A DNA stretch of 64,000 nucleotides. It comes from an uncultured Arachnia sp. (GTDB lineage Bacteria > Actinomycetota > Actinomycetes > Propionibacteriales > Propionibacteriaceae). Numbering within the stretch: position 1 is the stretch's first letter; each line of letters begins with the position of its first letter. Both the position numbers and the translations under genes were made by a program. The notes beneath the pieces were generated by a model that was given only the letters and a program-made list of their open reading frames with translations, was not told the origin of the DNA and did no database searches. This document shows, in pieces, positions 871 through 32,013 of the stretch. Location: contig CANLTJ010000004.1 in assembly GCA_947493995.1 (NCBI GenBank), positions 208,193-272,192 of the forward strand, given 5' to 3'.

Positions 871-1686
871 TCAGGCCTTGACGCTGGCCTGACGGCGGGT
901 GACGATCACAGCGGTGCCGGCGATGGCGAGGGCGCCAATCAGGGCTGCTGCGGTTCCTGCGGACGAGCCTGGACCTTCGGCGCCTGTGGAGGGCATTCCC
1001 GGCTCATCGCCTGCTTCCATGAGGTCGACGGACTGGGTGGCCAGAGCGAGGCTGCCGCCCTCAAGGCTTCCCCAGGCGTAGACGATGAGGTTCTTGCCGT
1101 CTTCCACCGCGACGTCGGCGGGGCCGAGGACAACGGTGTCGGTGCCGGCGGCAACCACATCGACATTCAGAGTGCCTGCCGCGATGTTCAGCATGGCCTC
1201 GTTCGGGTTCTCCAGCGCGCTGATGACTGCTGTTCCGCCAGCGCGTACATCCACGGCCGGGGCGGCTGCGACATGGCGGACGGTGATGCGGCCGCCTTCC
1301 GCGGAGGCGGAGGTGTCATTCACGAACGGCGTCAGCATCGGGGTGCCGTCTGCGCCGAGGTGTGCCGCCACCGTGATGTTGGCGCCACCGGGGACGGTCA
1401 CACCATTGGCTTCGATGATGGCGTCGGCATCGCCGTCCGCGGCGTCGCCAGCAACGACCTTCAGGTCGTAGTCGCCAGCAGGCAGCATCAGGGGATCGGT
1501 CAGTGTGCCGGGAGTGAAGTCATCCAGGAGCCTGTCGCCATTGGCGTAGACGTCGACGGTGGCATCGGGGACGGCGTGGAGAATGGAGACGGTGGCCTCG
1601 TGGTTGTCCGCTACTGCTGCGGGAACGACGAGGAGTGAGGAGGCCAGGCCAAGTGAGCCGGCCGCAAGAAGTCGCTGCAACTTCAT
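871..1686 (-). CDS. Sortase-anchored DUF4397-domain surface protein
   Basis: A 271-residue secreted protein. I start it at MKLQRLL, 14 residues inside the track ORF, because a GAAAGGA Shine-Dalgarno sits just upstream and a clean signal peptide follows (cut near AVADN). Residues about 28-215 hold two DUF4397-type beta-sandwich repeats, recognisable from TVSILHAVPDATVDVYANG and a second ITVRHVAAAPAVDVRAGG. The C-terminus has a sortase-like MPSTG, a hydrophobic helix and a basic tail (RRQASVKA), so covalent attachment to the cell wall is likely. No enzymatic residues are evident. It lies upstream of an ECF sigma/anti-sigma pair in the same direction and may be a target or part of that signalling unit. 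Confidence 0.88.
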   Translation of the reverse strand: MKLQRLLAAGSLGLASSLLVVPAAVADNHEATVSILHAVPDATVDVYANGDRLLDDFTPGTLTDPLMLPAGDYDLKVVAGDAADGDADAIIEANGVTVPGGANITVAAHLGADGTPMLTPFVNDTSASAEGGRITVRHVAAAPAVDVRAGGTAVISALENPNEAMLNIAAGTLNVDVVAAGTDTVVLGPADVAVEDGKNLIVYAWGSLEGGSLALATQSVDLMEAGDEPGMPSTGAEGPGSSAGTAAALIGALAIAGTAVIVTRRQASVKA

Positions 1687-1712
1687 GGGATCGATCCTTT
1701 CGGTACGAGTAG

Positions 1713-1730
1713 GGGTGGCGATTGCCACCC
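1713..1730. terminator. Hairpin between SGNH esterase gene and DUF4397 gene
   Basis: Perfect 7-base arms GGGTGGC and GCCACCC flank the loop GATT. It is about 85 bases past the stop of the SGNH gene and about 27 bases before the DUF4397 start, so it could end the upstream transcript or form a structure in the DUF4397 leader. There is no T-tract. Confidence 0.4.
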
Positions 1731-1815: not shown

Positions 1816-4800
1816 TCAGGGCTTGAACCGCACCATGTTGTTGAACACCCACCCCTGCGACGGGGAGTAGAGCCATCCGCCGTTCGGCTGTTTCTCCGCC
1901 GCAACAAAGCTGGTCCAGATGTAGGAGCGGCACCCGTTGCGACCCGTCGCAGCAGTGTCGCACTCCGTCTTCCACCGGCGTCCACCGGCTGCTGTCCACT
2001 GCCCCGTACTGGCCAAGGGATTCGTCTTCCACGCCGCCCGGGTCATCCTCGGCAGGTAGGTCATGTTGTTGAACACCCAACCGTTGGAGGTGCGATACGT
2101 GCCGTCAACGAGATCGACGGTCGTCCCCCAGATGTCCGTGCGGCATCTGAGCGTCTGCGAGTACGGCTCACACGTGGTGTGCCAGTGACGGCCATTGACG
2201 AAGTGCAGACCCGGAGTTGAGTAGACGTCAACCGGGGTGGGGGACGGCGACGAAGGGGGGCGCGTCGGCGGATCCTTGGTGGCCACGACGGTGGGAGTGA
2301 TAGTGACCGTCGACGTCATGGTGGTCGTCGTCGTCACAGTGGGTGTGACGATGAGGGTCGGAGTGATCGTCACCGTCGGGGTCGTGGTGATCGTCGGCGT
2401 GACGGTGACTGTGGGTGTCACCGTGAGCGTCGGAGTGACGGTGAGAGTGGAAGTGACCGTGACGGTGGGTGCAGGCGTGGACGTGGCCGTGGTGTCGACG
2501 GTGATGTCCACCACCTGTGGCGCCACCCGCGCTCGCTGGTTGGCGGCCGATGCATTGACGACAACCCTGAACACATCTCCGTCGACTGCATCCGCCGGGA
2601 CCTGAAGAGCAACTCTCGCAGTGGCCGTGGTTGCGACGGCAATCCCGGGAACGGCGACGCTGGCTTCCGGGCCATTGATGGTCGCGGTATTGCCCTCGGC
2701 CGTGAGGCTCACCAGTTCTGCCGTGTGACCCAGGACGTGGGCGCTGAAGGCGCGGGAGTCCCCGGGTGCTCCGCTCGTGGTGAGGATGGCGTCGAAAGCC
2801 ACCACTTCACCCGCGGCGGCACTCATCGCGGCGGGGACCTCCAGGCTGAGCGTGGCCGCGGGCCGGACGGAGGAATTGGCACTGTTGGAACGGCCGTCCC
2901 AGATTCCCAGGTCCGTCAACACCTTGTACGCCATCTTCTGGTGCGCCTGTGCGGTGAGTTGGCCGTCCTCGAACCAAGTGGATGGCACGGTTGTGCTGTT
3001 GGTCAGACGCATTTCCGCGGCGAGGTCGATGACGAAGGCCCGGTGCGCGGCAGCTGCCGCGCGCATGGCCTCGTTGCCCTCCGGCGACGTGCGCTCAAGC
3101 AGCGGTGATGTCATCAGAACAGGGGTGCTTCCCAGCGCCCGGACTGCCGCGATGGCGTCGCCCAGCTGCTGCGCATAGGCGTCTGTGCCACCCGCTGCCG
3201 TGATGTCGGATTCCACCAGCGGGAGCAGCACCAGACGAGATTCGGGCAGGGCGGGCTGCGTTTCCAGCCAGGCGATCCTCGCGGGCAGCGACGCCGCCCC
3301 CGGCGTCGCCGTGACGACGTAGTCGCGCCGGTGTCCGCGTTCCCAGCGGTTGCGTTCCGAGAGAATCTGGGGCCAGGATCGCCATCCGTCGTCCGGCGCG
3401 TTGAGCTGCGCCTCCTCTCCCAGAATGACCAGCGGCACCGAAGTGCTGGTGGGGCTGCCGAACCCGAGGAAGGCGTTCACGAAGTCCGCGGCGGGGGTGA
3501 CTGCGCCCCTCTCCACCAGGAAGTTGAAAGGTTCGGCGGGCTGGGCCCATGACCAGAATCGTTCCACGGAGCCGACGAAACCGTCGATGACGCCATCGTC
3601 GCTGTCGGGCATGCCCCCAATGTGCAGGGAGTCGATGGTGACAACATCGGCCCCGAAGATCTGCCGGGGTGCCACCGACACAGTGAGGCCATCCACGAAC
3701 AGCCGGGTGCCACCGTCCCCGGCAGCCAGCGCCACAGTGTGCTTCTCCCCGTCGTCGAGTCCCATGTCGGGTGAGGAGAGGGTGAGCAGCGATGTGCCGG
3801 CGTTGGACACCTCCACTTGGACGCCACCGTCGACGCTCACCACCTTCAGGTAGGAATCGGTGCGGGACGAGTCGTGCAGGGCGAACAGCACGCCGGGGGC
3901 CCGGGTGGTGGTGGAGAACCGTGCAAGGTAAGTGCCCTCCACCTGCCGATGGATGGGGAGGTCTGCAAGGTCGCTGCTGCGATCTTCGATCCGCTCGCCG
4001 GTGAAGGCGCCGGGGAACTGGTATCCATAGGTCTGCTGAACCGGGGTGTTGAGGGTGGGGGAGCTGCCCGGCTTCAGCCCGCCGGCAGGGAGGTCGTTCT
4101 CGGCGCCAATGCCGCTCGAGGTGTCCCATCGGCCAAAGGTTTCGAAGAAGTTGCGCGTGAACTGCCAGTGTCCGTGGGCGCTCGGGTGGATGTTGTCGCC
4201 GTACCAGAGGTCGGGGGCTTCGCCGGCGTTGGCATGCTGCCAGTCGCCGTAGTTGTCGACGAGGACCACGCGATGCTGCGCGGCCACCTCGCGCATCGCC
4301 TGGACGTAGAGGGGATAGTCGGCCCTGGCTCCGCTGGCGCCGCCCCGGATGGGATTGGATGTGGCGAAGACGGGGATGGCGTCCTCGGCACGCGTCTTGT
4401 CGATGATGGCCGCCAGGTTTGCCCTGAACATCGCCAGGCTCTGCCCCGTGCTCGTGGCAGCATCGTTCATGCCGATCATCGTGACCACCACGTCGGGGTC
4501 GTAGCGGCCTGCGCGCTCCTCGAAGGTGTCGTTGATCCCGATGGTGTTGTTCCCCGCACCTGCCGTGTCTCCTGAGATGGCGGTGTTGACCACCAGATCA
4601 CGACCATTGCCCAACTCGGCCAGACGGGCTGCCACCTGTTCCGACCAGGAGCGGTAGCCGTAGGTGTGCAATGCGCCGTGCGTAATGGAGTCACCGGTGA
4701 ACACCCACGTTGCCGGTTCGCTCCGATCTTCCTGCACGAGGGCGAGCAGCTCAGCGAAATCCGGAAGCGCGACGGGGTATCTGTTGATCGCCGAGTCCGT

Positions 4801-5472
4801 GCCAATTCCCTGCATCTCTGAGGGGGTCATACGCCCGTCCATGATGGCGATCCGGTTGATGCTGCCCGTGAAGAAATTCGTCCATGTGTCGTCAGCGCCG
4901 GCCATCGCGCCGACGTGCACGCTGTCCAGCCCTTCGATTGACGCCAGGAACGCGTCGCTGGTTCCGAAGTACACCGGACTGGCGTCGAGGTGGATCCAGA
5001 GGAAGCCGCGATCAACGACGACGTGCACCTGGTGTGCCTCGCCCGCAACCACCTTGGCATCGATCGTCTCGTCGATCAGCGTCATGCCGCCCGTGGTCAC
5101 CCGCCACCTCAGGGAATCACCCTCCAGGCTCAGCACGGCCGCATCGGCCGGGTCCGCGCTGGAGAACAGGTGCGCGATCGTCTGGCTACCGGTGGTTGTC
5201 GCCGGGGTGAAGTTCACCTGGATCGTGCCCTCAGGCAAGGACGCCGCGGACGCCATGCCGTCCGCTCCGGGACCGTAACCGCGATGCTCGGACCCATCGA
5301 AGGTGCTGTCGGCATGGCCGGGAGCCCAGCCGAAACCGAACACCAGACTGGATTGGGCGTCCACCGGCTCCTCGGCCCGGGCGGCGGATTGGCCGAGGCT
5401 CAGCGTTGTCAGGAACACGGCCAGTACCACGAGGCAGGCAGTCACCTGGCGTCTTTCGTCATTGAAGCGCAT
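1816..5472 (-). CDS. Giant secreted multidomain SGNH-hydrolase/LamG protein with C-terminal VFNN domain
   Basis: The true start is MRFNDERRQ, far inside the 1531-residue track ORF, because a typical signal peptide (VTACLVVLAVFLTTLSLG, cut near ARA) begins there and the upstream part overlaps the divergent nei gene. The 1218-residue product has a LamG/concanavalin-like domain (about 40-215) and an SGNH hydrolase (about 255-480) with GDSITH near 260 and DNIHP near 427. These are followed by a second LamG-like domain (about 485-635) and a degenerate second SGNH-like domain (about 645-860). An Ig-like segment and a Thr/Val/Pro linker (about 997-1080) lead to a 138-residue domain with two WVFNN motifs. 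It probably removes acyl groups from polysaccharide outside the cell. The substrate is unknown. Confidence 0.85.
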   Translation of the reverse strand: MRFNDERRQVTACLVVLAVFLTTLSLGQSAARAEEPVDAQSSLVFGFGWAPGHADSTFDGSEHRGYGPGADGMASAASLPEGTIQVNFTPATTTGSQTIAHLFSSADPADAAVLSLEGDSLRWRVTTGGMTLIDETIDAKVVAGEAHQVHVVVDRGFLWIHLDASPVYFGTSDAFLASIEGLDSVHVGAMAGADDTWTNFFTGSINRIAIMDGRMTPSEMQGIGTDSAINRYPVALPDFAELLALVQEDRSEPATWVFTGDSITHGALHTYGYRSWSEQVAARLAELGNGRDLVVNTAISGDTAGAGNNTIGINDTFEERAGRYDPDVVVTMIGMNDAATSTGQSLAMFRANLAAIIDKTRAEDAIPVFATSNPIRGGASGARADYPLYVQAMREVAAQHRVVLVDNYGDWQHANAGEAPDLWYGDNIHPSAHGHWQFTRNFFETFGRWDTSSGIGAENDLPAGGLKPGSSPTLNTPVQQTYGYQFPGAFTGERIEDRSSDLADLPIHRQVEGTYLARFSTTTRAPGVLFALHDSSRTDSYLKVVSVDGGVQVEVSNAGTSLLTLSSPDMGLDDGEKHTVALAAGDGGTRLFVDGLTVSVAPRQIFGADVVTIDSLHIGGMPDSDDGVIDGFVGSVERFWSWAQPAEPFNFLVERGAVTPAADFVNAFLGFGSPTSTSVPLVILGEEAQLNAPDDGWRSWPQILSERNRWERGHRRDYVVTATPGAASLPARIAWLETQPALPESRLVLLPLVESDITAAGGTDAYAQQLGDAIAAVRALGSTPVLMTSPLLERTSPEGNEAMRAAAAAHRAFVIDLAAEMRLTNSTTVPSTWFEDGQLTAQAHQKMAYKVLTDLGIWDGRSNSANSSVRPAATLSLEVPAAMSAAAGEVVAFDAILTTSGAPGDSRAFSAHVLGHTAELVSLTAEGNTATINGPEASVAVPGIAVATTATARVALQVPADAVDGDVFRVVVNASAANQRARVAPQVVDITVDTTATSTPAPTVTVTSTLTVTPTLTVTPTVTVTPTITTTPTVTITPTLIVTPTVTTTTTMTSTVTITPTVVATKDPPTRPPSSPSPTPVDVYSTPGLHFVNGRHWHTTCEPYSQTLRCRTDIWGTTVDLVDGTYRTSNGWVFNNMTYLPRMTRAAWKTNPLASTGQWTAAGGRRWKTECDTAATGRNGCRSYIWTSFVAAEKQPNGGWLYSPSQGWVFNNMVRFKP
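1819..2232 (-). other. VFNN domain copy 1 (C-terminus of SGNH protein)
   Basis: This covers residues 1081-1218 of the SGNH protein. Two halves share the same order of motifs: GR-x-W, a Cys pair about 9-10 residues apart, an I-W pair, then GWVFNN. The same domain is found in three other proteins in this window, starting near 11325, 12759 and 29230. No name for it is known to me. Confidence 0.75.
2285..2480 (-). repeat. Degenerate Thr-Val-Thr-Pro coding repeat (linker)
   Basis: On the coding strand the DNA alternates near-copies of a short unit giving TVTVTPT-like peptides (TLTVTPTLTVTPTVTVTP). It is a mucin-like stalk between the enzymatic part and the C-terminal domain of the SGNH protein. 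The unit length varies, so recombination or slippage could change stalk length. Confidence 0.7.
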
Positions 5473-11237: not shown

Positions 11238-12311
11238 ATGCTGAAGCACGCCCTCACCGTTCTTGCAGCGGGCGCCATCACCGTCGCCTCTGCCCTCGTT
11301 GCCCCCGCACCCGCCACGGCGGATGTGAATGTCTACACCACGCCAGGACGACACGTCGTGGCCGGGCGGCAGTGGAACACCACGTGTTCCGCGTACGACG
11401 CAAACATCACCCGCTGCCGCGCGGAGATCCTCAGCGGCGGCAAATGGGTGTTCAACAACCTGACATACCTTGCGACGGATCGAGCCAACTGGTTCGACAA
11501 TCCTCTCGCCCGCCCCGGCAAATTCACCTCGGCTGGCAGGGAATGGATCACGTCCTGCAACGATGACTGGACCGGTCAGAACGCCTGCCGCACCTTCATC
11601 AAGATCGGTGGCAAGTGGGTGTTCAACAACTTGGTGTATTTCACGCCGGGAGACGTCCGCTATCCCAAGTTCACGTTCGACCAGGACACTGGAAGGCTCA
11701 CCGTCACTGACACAGAGTTGACCCGTTTCTGGTTGCTGGAGGACACGCCGCTCTACTCCGCAGCCGAAGGGGCCGCCACCATCGGCCGGCTGGGCAAGGG
11801 CACGGGTGTCACCGTCACTCAGCGCGAGATCGGTGACCGCAGCGAGATCTACCGCAATGGTGTCTTCAGCTTCGTCCCGACGTACGCCCTCAGCCGCGAG
11901 GCCGTCGAGCCTCCGCCAGCGCCGGAGGATGAAGGAACTCTGAACCGGGGCAACTCCTCGGGTCTCGACAGGGTCAATGACAACACCAAGAAGGTTGTGC
12001 GCCACGTCTGGGCCAGTTATCCGCAGATCACGACCATGCATGGCTGGAGCAGGAGAACAACACCGGACCACCCGGCTGGTCGCGCCGTGGACATCATGAT
12101 CCCCAACTGGAGGAACAACAAGGCGTTGGGATGGGAGATCGCCAACTACTATCGCGAGAACGCACATCACTTCGGAATCAACTACATCATCTTCGATCAG
12201 CACATCTGGTCAGTGGCACGCGACAGTCAGGGCTGGCGCGCGATGGGTGACCGCGGCAGCAACACTGCCAACCACAAGGACCACGTGCACGTGAATACCT
12301 ACGACGTCTGA
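11238..12311 (+). CDS. Secreted M15-like metallopeptidase with N-terminal VFNN domain
   Basis: A 357-residue exported protein with a GGAGAAG ribosome site and a signal peptide (cut near ATAD). Residues 30-137 are a compact copy of the two-half VFNN domain. After a short SH3-like linker (about 140-220), the C-terminal 115 residues carry HPAGRAVDIMIP and HKDHVHV, the zinc-ligand pattern of D-Ala-D-Ala peptidase-like domains. It is probably a peptidoglycan hydrolase targeted to the wall. It is monocistronic and followed by a good hairpin terminator. The exact peptide bond cut is not known. Confidence 0.85.
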   Translation: MLKHALTVLAAGAITVASALVAPAPATADVNVYTTPGRHVVAGRQWNTTCSAYDANITRCRAEILSGGKWVFNNLTYLATDRANWFDNPLARPGKFTSAGREWITSCNDDWTGQNACRTFIKIGGKWVFNNLVYFTPGDVRYPKFTFDQDTGRLTVTDTELTRFWLLEDTPLYSAAEGAATIGRLGKGTGVTVTQREIGDRSEIYRNGVFSFVPTYALSREAVEPPPAPEDEGTLNRGNSSGLDRVNDNTKKVVRHVWASYPQITTMHGWSRRTTPDHPAGRAVDIMIPNWRNNKALGWEIANYYRENAHHFGINYIIFDQHIWSVARDSQGWRAMGDRGSNTANHKDHVHVNTYDV

Positions 12312-12332
12312 GCCCACATCCACAACCTTCGA

Positions 12333-12360
12333 TCCCCGGGCCCGCAGCAGGGCCCGGGGA
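12333..12360 (+). terminator. Rho-independent-type terminator after the M15-like gene
   Basis: Perfect 11-base arms (TCCCCGGGCCC and complement) with the loop GCAGCA lie 21 bases past the stop codon. They are followed by CCGCTTGTTTCT, which is T-rich for this genome. Confidence 0.75.
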
Positions 12361-12414
12361 CCGCTTGTTTCTACGACACGGCGTCAGAACTGCCAGGGCC
12401 GCTTTCTGACGACC

Positions 12415-12639
12415 GTGCAGGGCGAGCGACTGGCTCGTCGTCGTCCGTTGTCCAACAACAGAGGAATCGACGAAGCTATCGACAGTTTCACGGATGAGGA
12501 GCGCCCACACATGCAACTGAAGCGTTGCGGACTGCCGGATGAGGTAGCCAGCGTCATCGTGTTCCTGTGCTCGGATCGCGCGAGCTTCGTCAACGGCTCC
12601 GACTATCGGGTGGACTCCGGATCAGTCGCCACCATCTGA
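12415..12639 (+). pseudogene. C-terminal remnant of a short-chain dehydrogenase/reductase gene
   Basis: The last 38 codons read RCGLPDEVASVIVFLCSDRA and end in VNGSDYRVDSG, the typical C-terminal signature of FabG-like SDR enzymes (G-x-P-E-E-V-A, F-L-x-S, G-x-D). The Rossmann nucleotide site and the YxxxK active site are absent, and the preceding codons in frame are not SDR-like. It is therefore a decayed tail lying between two terminators, with no likely function. Confidence 0.75.
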
Positions 12640-12690
12640 TGGGGGTGGCGCCCCTCAGGCGCATCAGGAGCATCGCCGTGCGGGCATGCG

Positions 12691-12722
12691 CGGACCCTCC
12701 CCGACCGGTCGGGGAGGGTCCG
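12691..12722. terminator. Bidirectional hairpin terminator
   Basis: A perfect 32-base inverted repeat (CGGACCCTCCCCGACC and its complement) gives a stem of at least 14 bp with a small loop. It lies between the SDR remnant and the convergent lysozyme-like gene. On the plus strand TTCATT follows. It most likely ends the minus-strand gene. Confidence 0.75.
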
Positions 12723-12755
12723 TTCATTCGGTGGCCCGGCGGGCGGGGGCTGAGG

Positions 12756-13946
12756 TCAGCTGGAGAACCGGACGACGTTGTTGAAGACCCATTTCCTCGC
12801 CTCGCGGAACTGTCTGTTGCCACTCCCGTCGAGGTAGGCCTCGATGACGTGCGTCAGGATGAACGAGCGGCATCCATCCGGCCCGGTCCAGTCGTCGTTG
12901 CAGGAGGTCCTCCAGCTGCGTCCTCCAGAGGTGAACTCCCCGTCGACTGCAAGAGGGTTGTTCCGCCACTGGCTGCGGCTGGATGGCAGATAGGTGAGGT
13001 TGTTGAACTGCCAACCGTTTTCCTGGACGAACGTGCCGTTGACCTTGGAGACGGTGGTGGCCCAGATTTCGGCCCTGCAGCGATCAACGCGTGCGCTGTA
13101 GCTCTCACACGTGGTGCGCCACTTGCGACCGTTGACAGTGTGTTCACCGGCGGTGGTGTAGACGTCGACCGCTCCCGACGAGTGGCCCTGCAGAGCCTTC
13201 ACCATCGATTGCACAACGGGGCGCCAGTACTCGTAGTGGTAGCGGTACTGGGCGGCCGGGCGCTGCACGTTGGCCGCCACCCTCCACATCTCGTCGGTGC
13301 GCCAGTTCTTGGATCCCGTCATCTGGAACACCCCGGGAATGATGTAACCGGCGGGGCCGGCTCCGCCGTAGACGTAGCGGGGCACGCGGTGACCCTCGAT
13401 GAAGGTGCGTGTGGCGTAGGGGATGTTGTTGAGGATCCTGACGTTCTCCGCCTGGGTGGCCCCGTCTGCGTACCAACCCACTTTGGAACGCTGCTGGAAG
13501 GGGCCGACGTCCTGGTTGCGGTCCGGGATGTGGGCCTCCGGGTGGGTGTAGAAGGTCGATTCCTGTGCCATGGTCATCAGCGCGATGACGATGAGCCTGT
13601 CCTTGTCGGCAGAGCTGACTCCGGGCCAGGTGGCGGACTTGATGGTGTTGATCACGACGAGGGCATTGGCGAGCATCTGCGGGGTGATGGTGACCCAGGT
13701 GCCGTTGGATTTCTGCAGTCTCATGGTCTGCAGTCCACCGACGGCAGCTGCAGCGGCGGTCGTGTCGGCGTTGGAGCGGGTCGTGACCGCGGTGTCGGCG
13801 TCCGTTGTCGCTTCGATGGTGACGTCGCTGTCAGAGTCGCCCGGGTCGGCGTGCGCAACGGAGTGGGGGGTCAGGGCGCCGCCGATCACGGAGGCTGCCA
13901 CAAGCGGAACAAGGAAGAGCTTTTTGAGGGGGGATATGGTCTTCAC
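12756..13946 (-). CDS. Secreted lysozyme-like (transglycosylase-type) protein with C-terminal VFNN domain
   Basis: A 396-residue exported protein with a GTG start and a signal peptide ending near SVAHA. Residues about 70-230 contain MTMAQESTFYTHP and NQDVGPFQQR, which resemble the glutamate motif and the DSVGLFQQR-type motif of actinobacterial lysozyme-fold/transglycosylase domains. Glu in AQES is the candidate catalytic acid. Residues 260-396 are the two-half VFNN domain, complete with four cysteines. A role in peptidoglycan turnover is inferred. No Shine-Dalgarno is obvious before the GTG. Confidence 0.75.
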   Translation of the reverse strand: MKTISPLKKLFLVPLVAASVIGGALTPHSVAHADPGDSDSDVTIEATTDADTAVTTRSNADTTAAAAAVGGLQTMRLQKSNGTWVTITPQMLANALVVINTIKSATWPGVSSADKDRLIVIALMTMAQESTFYTHPEAHIPDRNQDVGPFQQRSKVGWYADGATQAENVRILNNIPYATRTFIEGHRVPRYVYGGAGPAGYIIPGVFQMTGSKNWRTDEMWRVAANVQRPAAQYRYHYEYWRPVVQSMVKALQGHSSGAVDVYTTAGEHTVNGRKWRTTCESYSARVDRCRAEIWATTVSKVNGTFVQENGWQFNNLTYLPSSRSQWRNNPLAVDGEFTSGGRSWRTSCNDDWTGPDGCRSFILTHVIEAYLDGSGNRQFREARKWVFNNVVRFSS

Positions 13947-29226: not shown

Positions 29227-31995
29227 TCAGCTGAAACGCACGATGTTGTTGAACACCCATGCCCAAGCGGTGTCGAAGCGGTAACCGCCGCCAGGCTGCG
29301 CCACCGCCTGTTCCACCTTCGTCCAGATAAAACTGCGGCAGCCATTGCCTCCGGTCTGCGGTGTGTCGCACTCCGTACGCCACTTGCGGCCATCCGTGGA
29401 GGTCCAGCTGCCGTCATACCCGAGCGGGTTGCCAGCCCACTGGGCACGTTTCATGTAGGGCAGATAGGTCAGGTTGTTGAAGTACCAGCCGGTCTGATTG
29501 ACGAAGCTTCCGTCCACGTTGCGCACCTGGGTGGCCCAGATGTCGGTGCGGCACCGGATGGTTCGGGAGTACGGCTCGCACTGGGTGAACCAGTAGCGGC
29601 CGTTCACATGGTGGAGACCGGGAGTCGAATAGAGATCAGTCTGACCATTGTCAGGGCCGGCGTTGGTTGTCGTTGCCGACGGGCTCGGGGTCATGGTGGT
29701 GGGCGGCGCGGTTGTTGAAGGCGGGCTGGGACTCGGAGATGCGCTCGGGTCCGGAGACACGGTGGCCGTCATCGTGGGGGTCGGTTGCGCTCCTCCGCCA
29801 TCCAGCGTGGTCAGGAACACGTCGCCCTCTCCGCTGTTGGTGTCAGTGGTGGTTGATCCGTAAGTCAGGCCGGAGAGGACGGTGGCACCGTCTCCGTCCA
29901 GCGCCACATACAGATTTCCCTCATCCCAGACATCGGCGCCATCCCTTTCCGCTGAACCCACCTGGCGTGTTTCCATGAGTTGGCCGGAGGCGTCGACGGT
30001 GGCCGTGAAGACATCTACGCCGCCAGCACCAAGGTCAATCCGCCCATCGGTGTGGCCAGCGAGGGTGATGGCGCCATCTGCGTCGACGGCGAGGTCCGCG
30101 GTACGGTCATCGCCAAGGCTGCCCACCTGCAGGCTCCAAGCAGTGGCGCCGTCTGCGGTCATCTTGCGGAGGAAGGCATCATTCCCGCCGGCGGATGTTT
30201 CACCCATCACACCTGAGGTGTGTCCGCCCACCAGAGGCATGCCATCGGCAGAAACGGCCAGCGCGAGGACTTGGTCGTCGTCGGCTGTACCCACCGGCGT
30301 GAGCCATTGTCGTTCGCCGTCGTTCGTGTACTTCGCAACCCATCCGTCGAGGCCTCCGAGGTTGGCGGAATCCGGCATCTCGGCCGACGTCATTCCACCC
30401 ACGTAGATGGCACCGTCGCGAGCTTGGGCAACGGCCTGGCCCTTGTCCTCGCCCGAACCACCCAGTTGATCCAGCCAGGCAACTTCTCCCTCCGGTGTCA
30501 CACGTGCCACAAAAGCATCCTTGTCCCCGGCATTGGTCTCACCAGAGAGCGAGCCCTTCGTGTAGCCGGCCACCAGCAGCCCGCCATCGTTGGCCGGGGC
30601 CGTCGCGTAGATTCGGTCCGCCTCCGATGGGTCACCGAACTGAGTGATCCAACTCACTGCACGGTCGTTACCGAGCCGTACGGCAAACCCGTCATCCGAT
30701 GATGCTGCTTCGTGTTCCCCATCGAGGTTGCCGCGTGTGTAGCCAGCCACGTAGTGATCGCCATCCGGTCCGAGCTCGACCCCATAGATCCGGTCGTTCG
30801 CCGTCGTACCGAGGTGGGTGGACCACCGTGTGGCGCCGTCACCGTCGCGAGCGATGACCAGTCCGTCGAGGCCTCCCTTCGACGAGACATCCCCGAGATC
30901 GCCAGCGATGTTGACGGCAATGACCTCACCACCGTCCACAGTTGTGACGATCCCGCCTGCACGATCGTCGCCGTCGGTGCCGAAGAGGGTTCCCTCCAGC
31001 AATTCGGGATCCGACGTGCGTACGCGCGTCATCACATCCTTCAGTCCTTCCTCGAAGGCTGGCTGCCACACATCCCAGCTGTGACCCCCGTTCAGGACTC
31101 GCAGCTCTGCGGTAATCGCCTCCGACCTGCGAACGGTGTTGTACAGCCGGGCCGCCTCAAAATCGAGGTCGTGATCCGCCTCCGCCGGGTCGGGGTTCAT
31201 CCATTCGTCGTCCCCGACGGCGATGAAGAGATGGGTGGGTGTGTCCGGATCAAGGGAGGGGAGAAGCGCGGGATAGTTCTTGGCCTCGTAGATGCTCTCG
31301 TCAAATACATCACCGCCCGTTCCGAAGGCGCCGAACTCACGCGCCGATGAATCGTCGGGCGGGTTGGGGATGTACACGGCGGGGCTCAGAACCAGACCCG
31401 CGGCAAACGTGTCCTGGTGCGCAAGTGCGAATCTGAGTGCGCCGTAACCTCCCATGGAATAGCCGCCCACCGCCCGAGCATTCCGGTCCGGGACCGTTCG
31501 ATACATGGCGTCAACATGGGCCACAAGATCGGTGGTCATGGCCGTCTCCACGGCTTCCCCGGCAGGGAGATCGCCGGATCCCTCGAAGTCCGAATCGACG
31601 TAGTAGTTGCCCCGCTCGCTCCACGGAGCGTCCGGCATGATGACCACGACGGGAGGGATCTCACCGTCGTCAATCATCTGGTCCAGGCTGGCCTTGACCC
31701 GAGGCCACGCAGCCATGGTGTCTCCTCGGCCGTGCAGAAGGTAAACCGTGGCGAAGCGTTCCTGCCCGCTCTCATACCCGGCGGGAAGGTACGCCGTGTA
31801 GTCGACGTCGATGCCAGCGGTGTCCGCTGGCATGACTTCCGTCACGAGCGTCCCCTCTGCGGGCTCGTCCGCGTGCGATGTCGTAGCAGACAGCATCGCC
31901 CCTCCGAGAGCCATCACTGCTGCCAGCCCCGCCAGAGGCATGGACTTCCACCACCGAGTGGCAACTTTGCTCGCTCGACTCTGAGTTTCCGTCAT
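29227..31995 (-). CDS. Secreted esterase with SBBP-type beta-propeller and C-terminal VFNN domain
   Basis: The start MTETQSRASK has GGAGG 6 bases upstream, so the MEVT extension in the track is discarded. The 922-residue protein has a signal peptide (cut near SHADEP) and an esterase-D-type alpha/beta hydrolase domain (about 40-320) with the nucleophile in GGYSMGGYG. About seven SBBP-like beta-propeller repeats follow (about 325-740; for example GLDGWVAKYTNDG). A Ser/Thr/Pro linker and the two-half VFNN domain end the protein. It probably removes acyl or feruloyl groups from polysaccharide at the cell surface. A catabolite-type operator upstream supports carbohydrate control. Confidence 0.87.
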   Translation of the reverse strand: MTETQSRASKVATRWWKSMPLAGLAAVMALGGAMLSATTSHADEPAEGTLVTEVMPADTAGIDVDYTAYLPAGYESGQERFATVYLLHGRGDTMAAWPRVKASLDQMIDDGEIPPVVVIMPDAPWSERGNYYVDSDFEGSGDLPAGEAVETAMTTDLVAHVDAMYRTVPDRNARAVGGYSMGGYGALRFALAHQDTFAAGLVLSPAVYIPNPPDDSSAREFGAFGTGGDVFDESIYEAKNYPALLPSLDPDTPTHLFIAVGDDEWMNPDPAEADHDLDFEAARLYNTVRRSEAITAELRVLNGGHSWDVWQPAFEEGLKDVMTRVRTSDPELLEGTLFGTDGDDRAGGIVTTVDGGEVIAVNIAGDLGDVSSKGGLDGLVIARDGDGATRWSTHLGTTANDRIYGVELGPDGDHYVAGYTRGNLDGEHEAASSDDGFAVRLGNDRAVSWITQFGDPSEADRIYATAPANDGGLLVAGYTKGSLSGETNAGDKDAFVARVTPEGEVAWLDQLGGSGEDKGQAVAQARDGAIYVGGMTSAEMPDSANLGGLDGWVAKYTNDGERQWLTPVGTADDDQVLALAVSADGMPLVGGHTSGVMGETSAGGNDAFLRKMTADGATAWSLQVGSLGDDRTADLAVDADGAITLAGHTDGRIDLGAGGVDVFTATVDASGQLMETRQVGSAERDGADVWDEGNLYVALDGDGATVLSGLTYGSTTTDTNSGEGDVFLTTLDGGGAQPTPTMTATVSPDPSASPSPSPPSTTAPPTTMTPSPSATTTNAGPDNGQTDLYSTPGLHHVNGRYWFTQCEPYSRTIRCRTDIWATQVRNVDGSFVNQTGWYFNNLTYLPYMKRAQWAGNPLGYDGSWTSTDGRKWRTECDTPQTGGNGCRSFIWTKVEQAVAQPGGGYRFDTAWAWVFNNIVRFS
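29230..29640 (-). other. VFNN domain copy 4 (C-terminus of secreted esterase)
   Basis: The last 137 residues of the esterase match the C-terminal domain of the SGNH protein over their full length, with the same start (LYSTPGLHHVNGR), CRTDIW, NPL and CRSFIWT blocks. In the first half the motif is GWYFNN rather than GWVFNN. It is preceded by a proline-rich linker. Confidence 0.75.
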
Positions 31996-32013
31996 GGTGA
32001 CCTCCATTGGCCG

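Follow-up and report, generated by a model that had tools for sequence, protein, structure and literature searches.

One may ask what brings the same small domain to four otherwise different secreted proteins of an uncultured Arachnia sp., all encoded within a single stretch of 64,000 nucleotides (contig CANLTJ010000004.1; hereafter the window). An earlier note had reported four copies of this domain, referred to here as VFNN, and all four were found where it had put them, in frame and within four signal-peptide proteins. The first copy (138 residues; 1819–2232, minus strand) forms the extreme C-terminus of an SGNH/GDSL protein (1816–5472, minus strand; start codon placed from the signal peptide MRFNDERRQVTACLVVLAVFLTTLSLGQSAARA), which contains two GDSL/SGNH stretches (PF13472), laminin-G-like modules (PF02210) and a Thr/Pro linker (TVTPT) that precedes the VFNN domain. 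The second, a short form of 109 residues (11325–11651, plus strand), lies directly behind the signal peptide of an M15-like protein (11238–12311, plus strand) and is followed by a middle region and a C-terminal M15/LAS-type domain (PDHPAGRAVD...KDHVHV), whose closest solved relative is PDB 9flh, a 'LysM domain-containing protein'. The third (137 residues; 12759–13169, minus strand) is the extreme C-terminus of a protein composed of a signal peptide and a lysozyme-like domain (12756–13946, minus strand); the latter has no Pfam or NCBIfam match, and its mostly helical, low-confidence model (pLDDT 50.6) was set aside as evidence. The fourth (137 residues; 29230–29640, minus strand) is again extreme C-terminal and ends a protein (29227–32007, minus strand) built of a signal peptide, a PF00756 esterase, an SBBP-type beta-propeller and a Ser/Pro/Thr linker. 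The genes of the VFNN-M15-like and lysozyme-like-VFNN proteins (11238–13946) are neighbours also in Tessaracoccus antarcticus (L134:2622–5721).

The four copies are internally duplicated, four-cysteine domains of 109–138 residues, the remaining three being 51–60% identical to the first, and their alignment shows over 40 columns without variation, among them the four Cys and two copies each of GR-x-W and W-x-FNN. The two halves proposed in the earlier note are homologous (hhalign of half 1 against half 2, P = 4e-16; reversed control, 0.023). In the third copy they comprise residues 1–74 (12948–13169, minus strand), with Cys21 and Cys31, and residues 75–137 (12759–12947, minus strand), with Cys90 and Cys100. 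The GR-x-W, Cys and FNN motifs listed initially are present, with small corrections: each half has a single Cys pair, and the last motif reads W-x-FNN in the first half and WVFNN, or a variant such as EIFNN or WVLNN, in the second. Positions R10, W12, T14, C16, C26 and N51 of the half-unit are invariant across both halves. Since the four cysteines are invariant, and are kept in distant homologues too, each half would be closed by one disulfide. The third copy was modelled with AlphaFold2 from 71 sequences as an all-beta domain of eight strands, in two halves of four strands each (pLDDT 95.5, pTM 0.83). When this model was compared by Foldseek with the PDB and viral libraries, nothing was obtained at E ≤ 0.001 and the listed TM-scores stayed below 0.3; the prediction thus suggests a new fold.

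Sequence searches gave a similar picture. No match up to E = 1 was obtained in Pfam-A or NCBIfam across the VFNN region of the four window proteins, the PHROGs contributed only fragments (E ≥ 0.06), the best hit of the VFNN profile among PDB sequences had E = 3.1 and represented no relative, and LysM, G5, SH3b, SLH and CWB2 did not match the domain in any carrier scanned. Among open-access papers no description of it was found. The profile search and structure prediction proposed earlier have therefore led to no known family, and the remark that the domain had no known name holds for Pfam, NCBIfam, PHROGs and PDB sequences. Altogether these results support the view that VFNN is a previously unnamed, internally duplicated module. 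That there is no known fold or family from which its ligand could be transferred weighs against the anchoring role argued for below.

How widely is the domain used? When the genome to which the window belongs (2.94 Mb in 58 contigs) was searched with a profile, at least 39 copies were recovered with E-values from 4.5e-95 to 1.7e-28, one per protein and nearly all either extreme C-terminal or directly behind the signal peptide; one copy is interrupted by a contig end. Every full-length carrier in this genome begins with a hydrophobic, signal-peptide-like segment. Of the copies in 135 full-length ORFs of the own and related genomes, 103 are C-terminal (at most 15 residues from the stop), 30 are N-terminal (directly behind the signal peptide) and two are internal, and none of these ORFs contains two copies. 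Carriers with the C-terminal tag are mostly joined to it through a Thr/Pro/Ser linker. A signal peptide was detected in 115 of the 135 carriers vs 58 of 260 neighbouring ORFs, with a crude detector that overlooks clear cases as well, so the tie to secretion on which the earlier note had staked its proposal holds in the own genome and in its relatives. Some copies look broken, i.e., they carry an in-frame TAG or lie in short frames without a signal peptide (G014:C1:1268202–1268606, L085), and thus some carrier genes appear to be decaying.

The proteins to which VFNN is attached differ largely in activity. C-terminal copies are found on GH20 (twice), GH35, GH101, GH123 with sialidase-like repeats, GH29, sialidase and pullulanase, and further on GH43 (twice), GH30, GH10, subtilase, 5′-nucleotidase, LTD nuclease, HAD and CAP proteins; N-terminal copies on NlpC/P60, Rpf transglycosylase, YkuD, DPBB, M15 types, Ltp, LRR and C5-epimerase proteins. 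Also noticed was a small protein in which an N-terminal VFNN domain precedes a 'sunset' domain (NCBIfam NF051437; L038:5584–6507, minus strand). The substrates of the partners, which include mucin-type glycans, pullulan, xylan, nucleotides and proteins, are unrelated, and Rpf, YkuD, NlpC/P60, DPBB and M15-like proteins would act on the cell's own wall. Such unrelated activities fit a shared location, whereas a substrate-binding module would serve them poorly, and we infer that location, not substrate, unites the carriers. It could be argued that VFNN is a carbohydrate-binding module that targets its enzymes to the mucin of a host or to plant glycans, since many carriers are glycan-degrading and possess also F5/8, NPCBM or ricin-type modules. 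Yet VFNN occurs once per protein on Rpf, YkuD, NlpC/P60, DPBB and M15-like proteins as well as on nucleotidases and nucleases, it is exchanged with a sorting-type tail (see below), and the carriers include species from very different habitats; we regard this explanation as quite unlikely. Binding of host glycans, which had been left as an option at the outset, is disfavoured likewise, as enzymes of the cell's own wall carry this tag too and a tail of the wall-sorting type takes its place in orthologues.

The exchange of tags was followed in orthologous enzymes. The 5′-nucleotidase was traced to its stop codon in 30 genomes of the genus, 13 carriers and 17 non-carriers. In carrier genomes it ends in VFNN in 11 of 13 and in LPSTGx in two (G018, G033), while in non-carriers VFNN was never found at this place (0/17); there the end is LPxTGx-stop (or PPxTGx-stop) in 15 and a basic repeat in two. 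This short LPxTGx-type tail contains neither a hydrophobic stretch nor a basic end. The LTD nuclease behaves similarly, ending in VFNN in seven carriers and in a PGLPxT[GS]-type sequence in 13 of 15 non-carriers (VFNN, 0/15), and GH20 hexosaminidase orthologues provide a third case. The tree of the catalytic part of the 5′-nucleotidase requires at least five tag changes over well supported branches, and sister pairs such as G009/G010 and G033/G042 differ in the tag. Such repeated replacement at one position of one enzyme implies that both tags most likely do the same job. Two other candidates were rejected: the subtilase bears VFNN in carriers, but its relatives in non-carriers are more distant paralogues with basic tails, and VFNN-Rpf is an extra paralogue beside the canonical DUF348-G5-Rpf. 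In two non-carriers (G029, G046; L281, L225) an Rpf protein and an LTD nuclease bear a different module (WTEVRLADGSWSKSQ.../SYVIPLTYG), repeated within the Rpf protein, which is perhaps a third surface tag.

The same orthologues bear on the idea that VFNN is no anchor, and aids instead the folding, stability or export of secreted proteins. It is compact, very regular and probably disulfide-bonded, and is present on exported proteins only, as such an aid would be; however, unlike export signals it may stand N- or C-terminally, and the orthologues with an LPxTG end lack it, so their folding is independent of VFNN. This role therefore seems very improbable. The picture of a common targeting tag, put forward in the earlier note, is supported by the export signals, the terminal position, the diverse partners and the repeated exchange with LPxTG ends.

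What, then, is the short LPxTG end? Many exported proteins of the genus terminate in PGLPxTGx-stop or PGLPxTSG-stop (L153, L154, L157, L162, L164–L174, L177–L204). As many as 19 matches to the corresponding DNA pattern were counted in a genus genome, whereas the control matched once each in two genomes; in the rest of the family the pattern is almost limited to a few genera. A signal-peptide-like start is present in 8 of the 12 proteins with a complete 5′ end. Judged by its occurrence, PGLPxTGx-stop is a genuine signal. The tail-less end of AbpA from oral streptococci (LPKTSAVK; KAGKALPKTSAVK) was demonstrated to be a wall-sorting signal of sortase B (SrtB; PMC4974636), and by analogy PGLPxTGx-stop is probably a sortase signal. 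Such a tag would escape the usual searches for sorting signals, in which LPXTG has to be followed by a hydrophobic stretch. Sortases are encoded in all 40 genomes of the genus, which indicates that VFNN is no substitute for an absent sortase system; their presence or absence was accordingly rejected as a cause of the VFNN distribution. Carriers have only slightly fewer LPxTG-stop ends than non-carriers (Mann-Whitney p = 0.056, genomes being treated regardless of kinship), which counts against the anchoring role, as does the ubiquity of sortases. Within the window, the gene at 871–1728 (minus strand) encodes a secreted protein whose sorting signal is canonical, with MPSTG, a hydrophobic stretch and an RR tail; classic sortase substrates and VFNN proteins hence coexist in this genome.

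The distribution of VFNN turned out to be broader than it seemed. The best matches in named genomes belong to Tessaracoccus species, uncultured Arachnia and Propionibacteriaceae MAGs; in the family, 16 of 199 genomes are carriers, all within the window's genus, where they make up 16 of 40 (for most of the 16 the copy counts are lower bounds). The full-domain profile, applied to 397 genomes of the phylum, gave only chance matches among the best few candidates scored per genome, one of which (G577/L142) is an out-of-frame TetR stretch and no homologue. Restriction to one genus was nonetheless dropped, since divergent homologues that the full-domain search had overlooked emerged with a half-unit profile: four genomes from a second actinobacterial family (f100) contain them, and a third family yielded a closer, C-terminal fragment. 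When scored again with the full-domain profile, the f100 homologues reach E-values down to 4.6e-22; in them the Cys pairs and most of G-x-x-W are conserved, the FNN is not. The attribution of the domain to this lineage thus stands for 16 of the 40 genus genomes and has to be widened by divergent versions in at least one other family. In f100 (L297–L300), three adjacent genes encode Amidase_2, SpoIID (both named by Pfam) and M15-like proteins, each with the divergent domain at or near the C-terminus, and the M15-like protein is related to the window enzyme of 11238–12311 (phmmer, 1.9e-7). Together with the window enzymes, this trio indicates that two separate lineages place VFNN on peptidoglycan-type enzymes. 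No VFNN copies were found in phage genomes, viral contigs and plasmids, nor any phage endolysin that uses the domain, which is a further point against the anchoring role.

These distant relatives matter for a further explanation, in which VFNN would be a docking module that, like a dockerin, binds a surface receptor protein (a scaffold or an S-layer-like protein) and not a wall polymer. The likeness is considerable, as both are two-repeat modules, terminal, with one copy per enzyme and dozens of carriers per genome. Unlike dockerins, however, VFNN contains no Ca-binding EF-hand repeats; dockerin PF00404 did not match it in Pfam, and its model is all-beta, whereas dockerins, with EF-hand-like repeats, are helical. 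Its carriers include also wall-remodelling enzymes, and these, together with the distant Amidase_2/SpoIID/M15-like trio, suit a wall ligand better. We consider docking of this kind unlikely.

The reading that we prefer is that VFNN is a new non-covalent domain which keeps exported proteins on the envelope of their own cell, most likely via a wall polymer; we hold this reading to be probable. Two features that define an envelope-anchoring class were found here, namely that the carriers are exported and that the domain is exchanged with another, putative, surface tag. Retention of the carriers at the cell surface is highly probable, and peptidoglycan or a wall-linked polysaccharide is a rather likely ligand. 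Sec-type export would bring the VFNN protein outside, where its single terminal copy would keep enzymes with unrelated activities on the cell surface, and VFNN and PGLPxTGx-stop would be alternative surface-retention devices at the same position of orthologues. In place and in kinds of partners (Rpf, NlpC/P60, YkuD, M15-type) VFNN resembles LysM, G5/DUF348 and other peptidoglycan-binding modules, but it differs from LysM and G5/DUF348 in lacking any sequence match, in its all-beta duplicated architecture with four invariant Cys and in its presence on dozens of non-wall enzymes. SLH, CWB2, GW, WxL and choline-binding modules likewise mark many secreted proteins for the wall and are each typical of certain lineages; VFNN in contrast has no Pfam match, is present as a single copy and not in arrays, and conserves different residues. 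With LPXTG signals, including LPKTSAVK of AbpA, it shares the C-terminal position in sister-species orthologues and the nature of a generic tag on unrelated exported proteins. Unlike them it is a folded 137-residue domain, used N-terminally too; it lacks the LPXTG motif, the C-terminal copies of the own genome stopping 0–2 residues before the stop codon, and as far as the sequence tells VFNN is not a covalent sorting signal.

A farther-reaching proposal, for and against which we see the evidence as about evenly balanced, is that this new fold founds an actinobacterial wall-anchoring superfamily, which in Arachnia/Tessaracoccus is interchangeable with an unrecognised, tail-less LPxTG sortase tag, the two having replaced each other many times. 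The tail-less tag is a second, separately testable claim, and natural pairs of the same enzyme with either VFNN or a tail-less LPxTG end would make the two anchoring mechanisms directly testable. If the preferred reading is true, a new non-covalent display tag, probably with a new fold, would have been added to those already described. One unnamed domain would then label the surface proteome in a group of Propionibacteriaceae, on 39 or more proteins of a single genome, and many large glycan-degrading enzymes, which annotation would call free secreted proteins, would be held at the cell surface.
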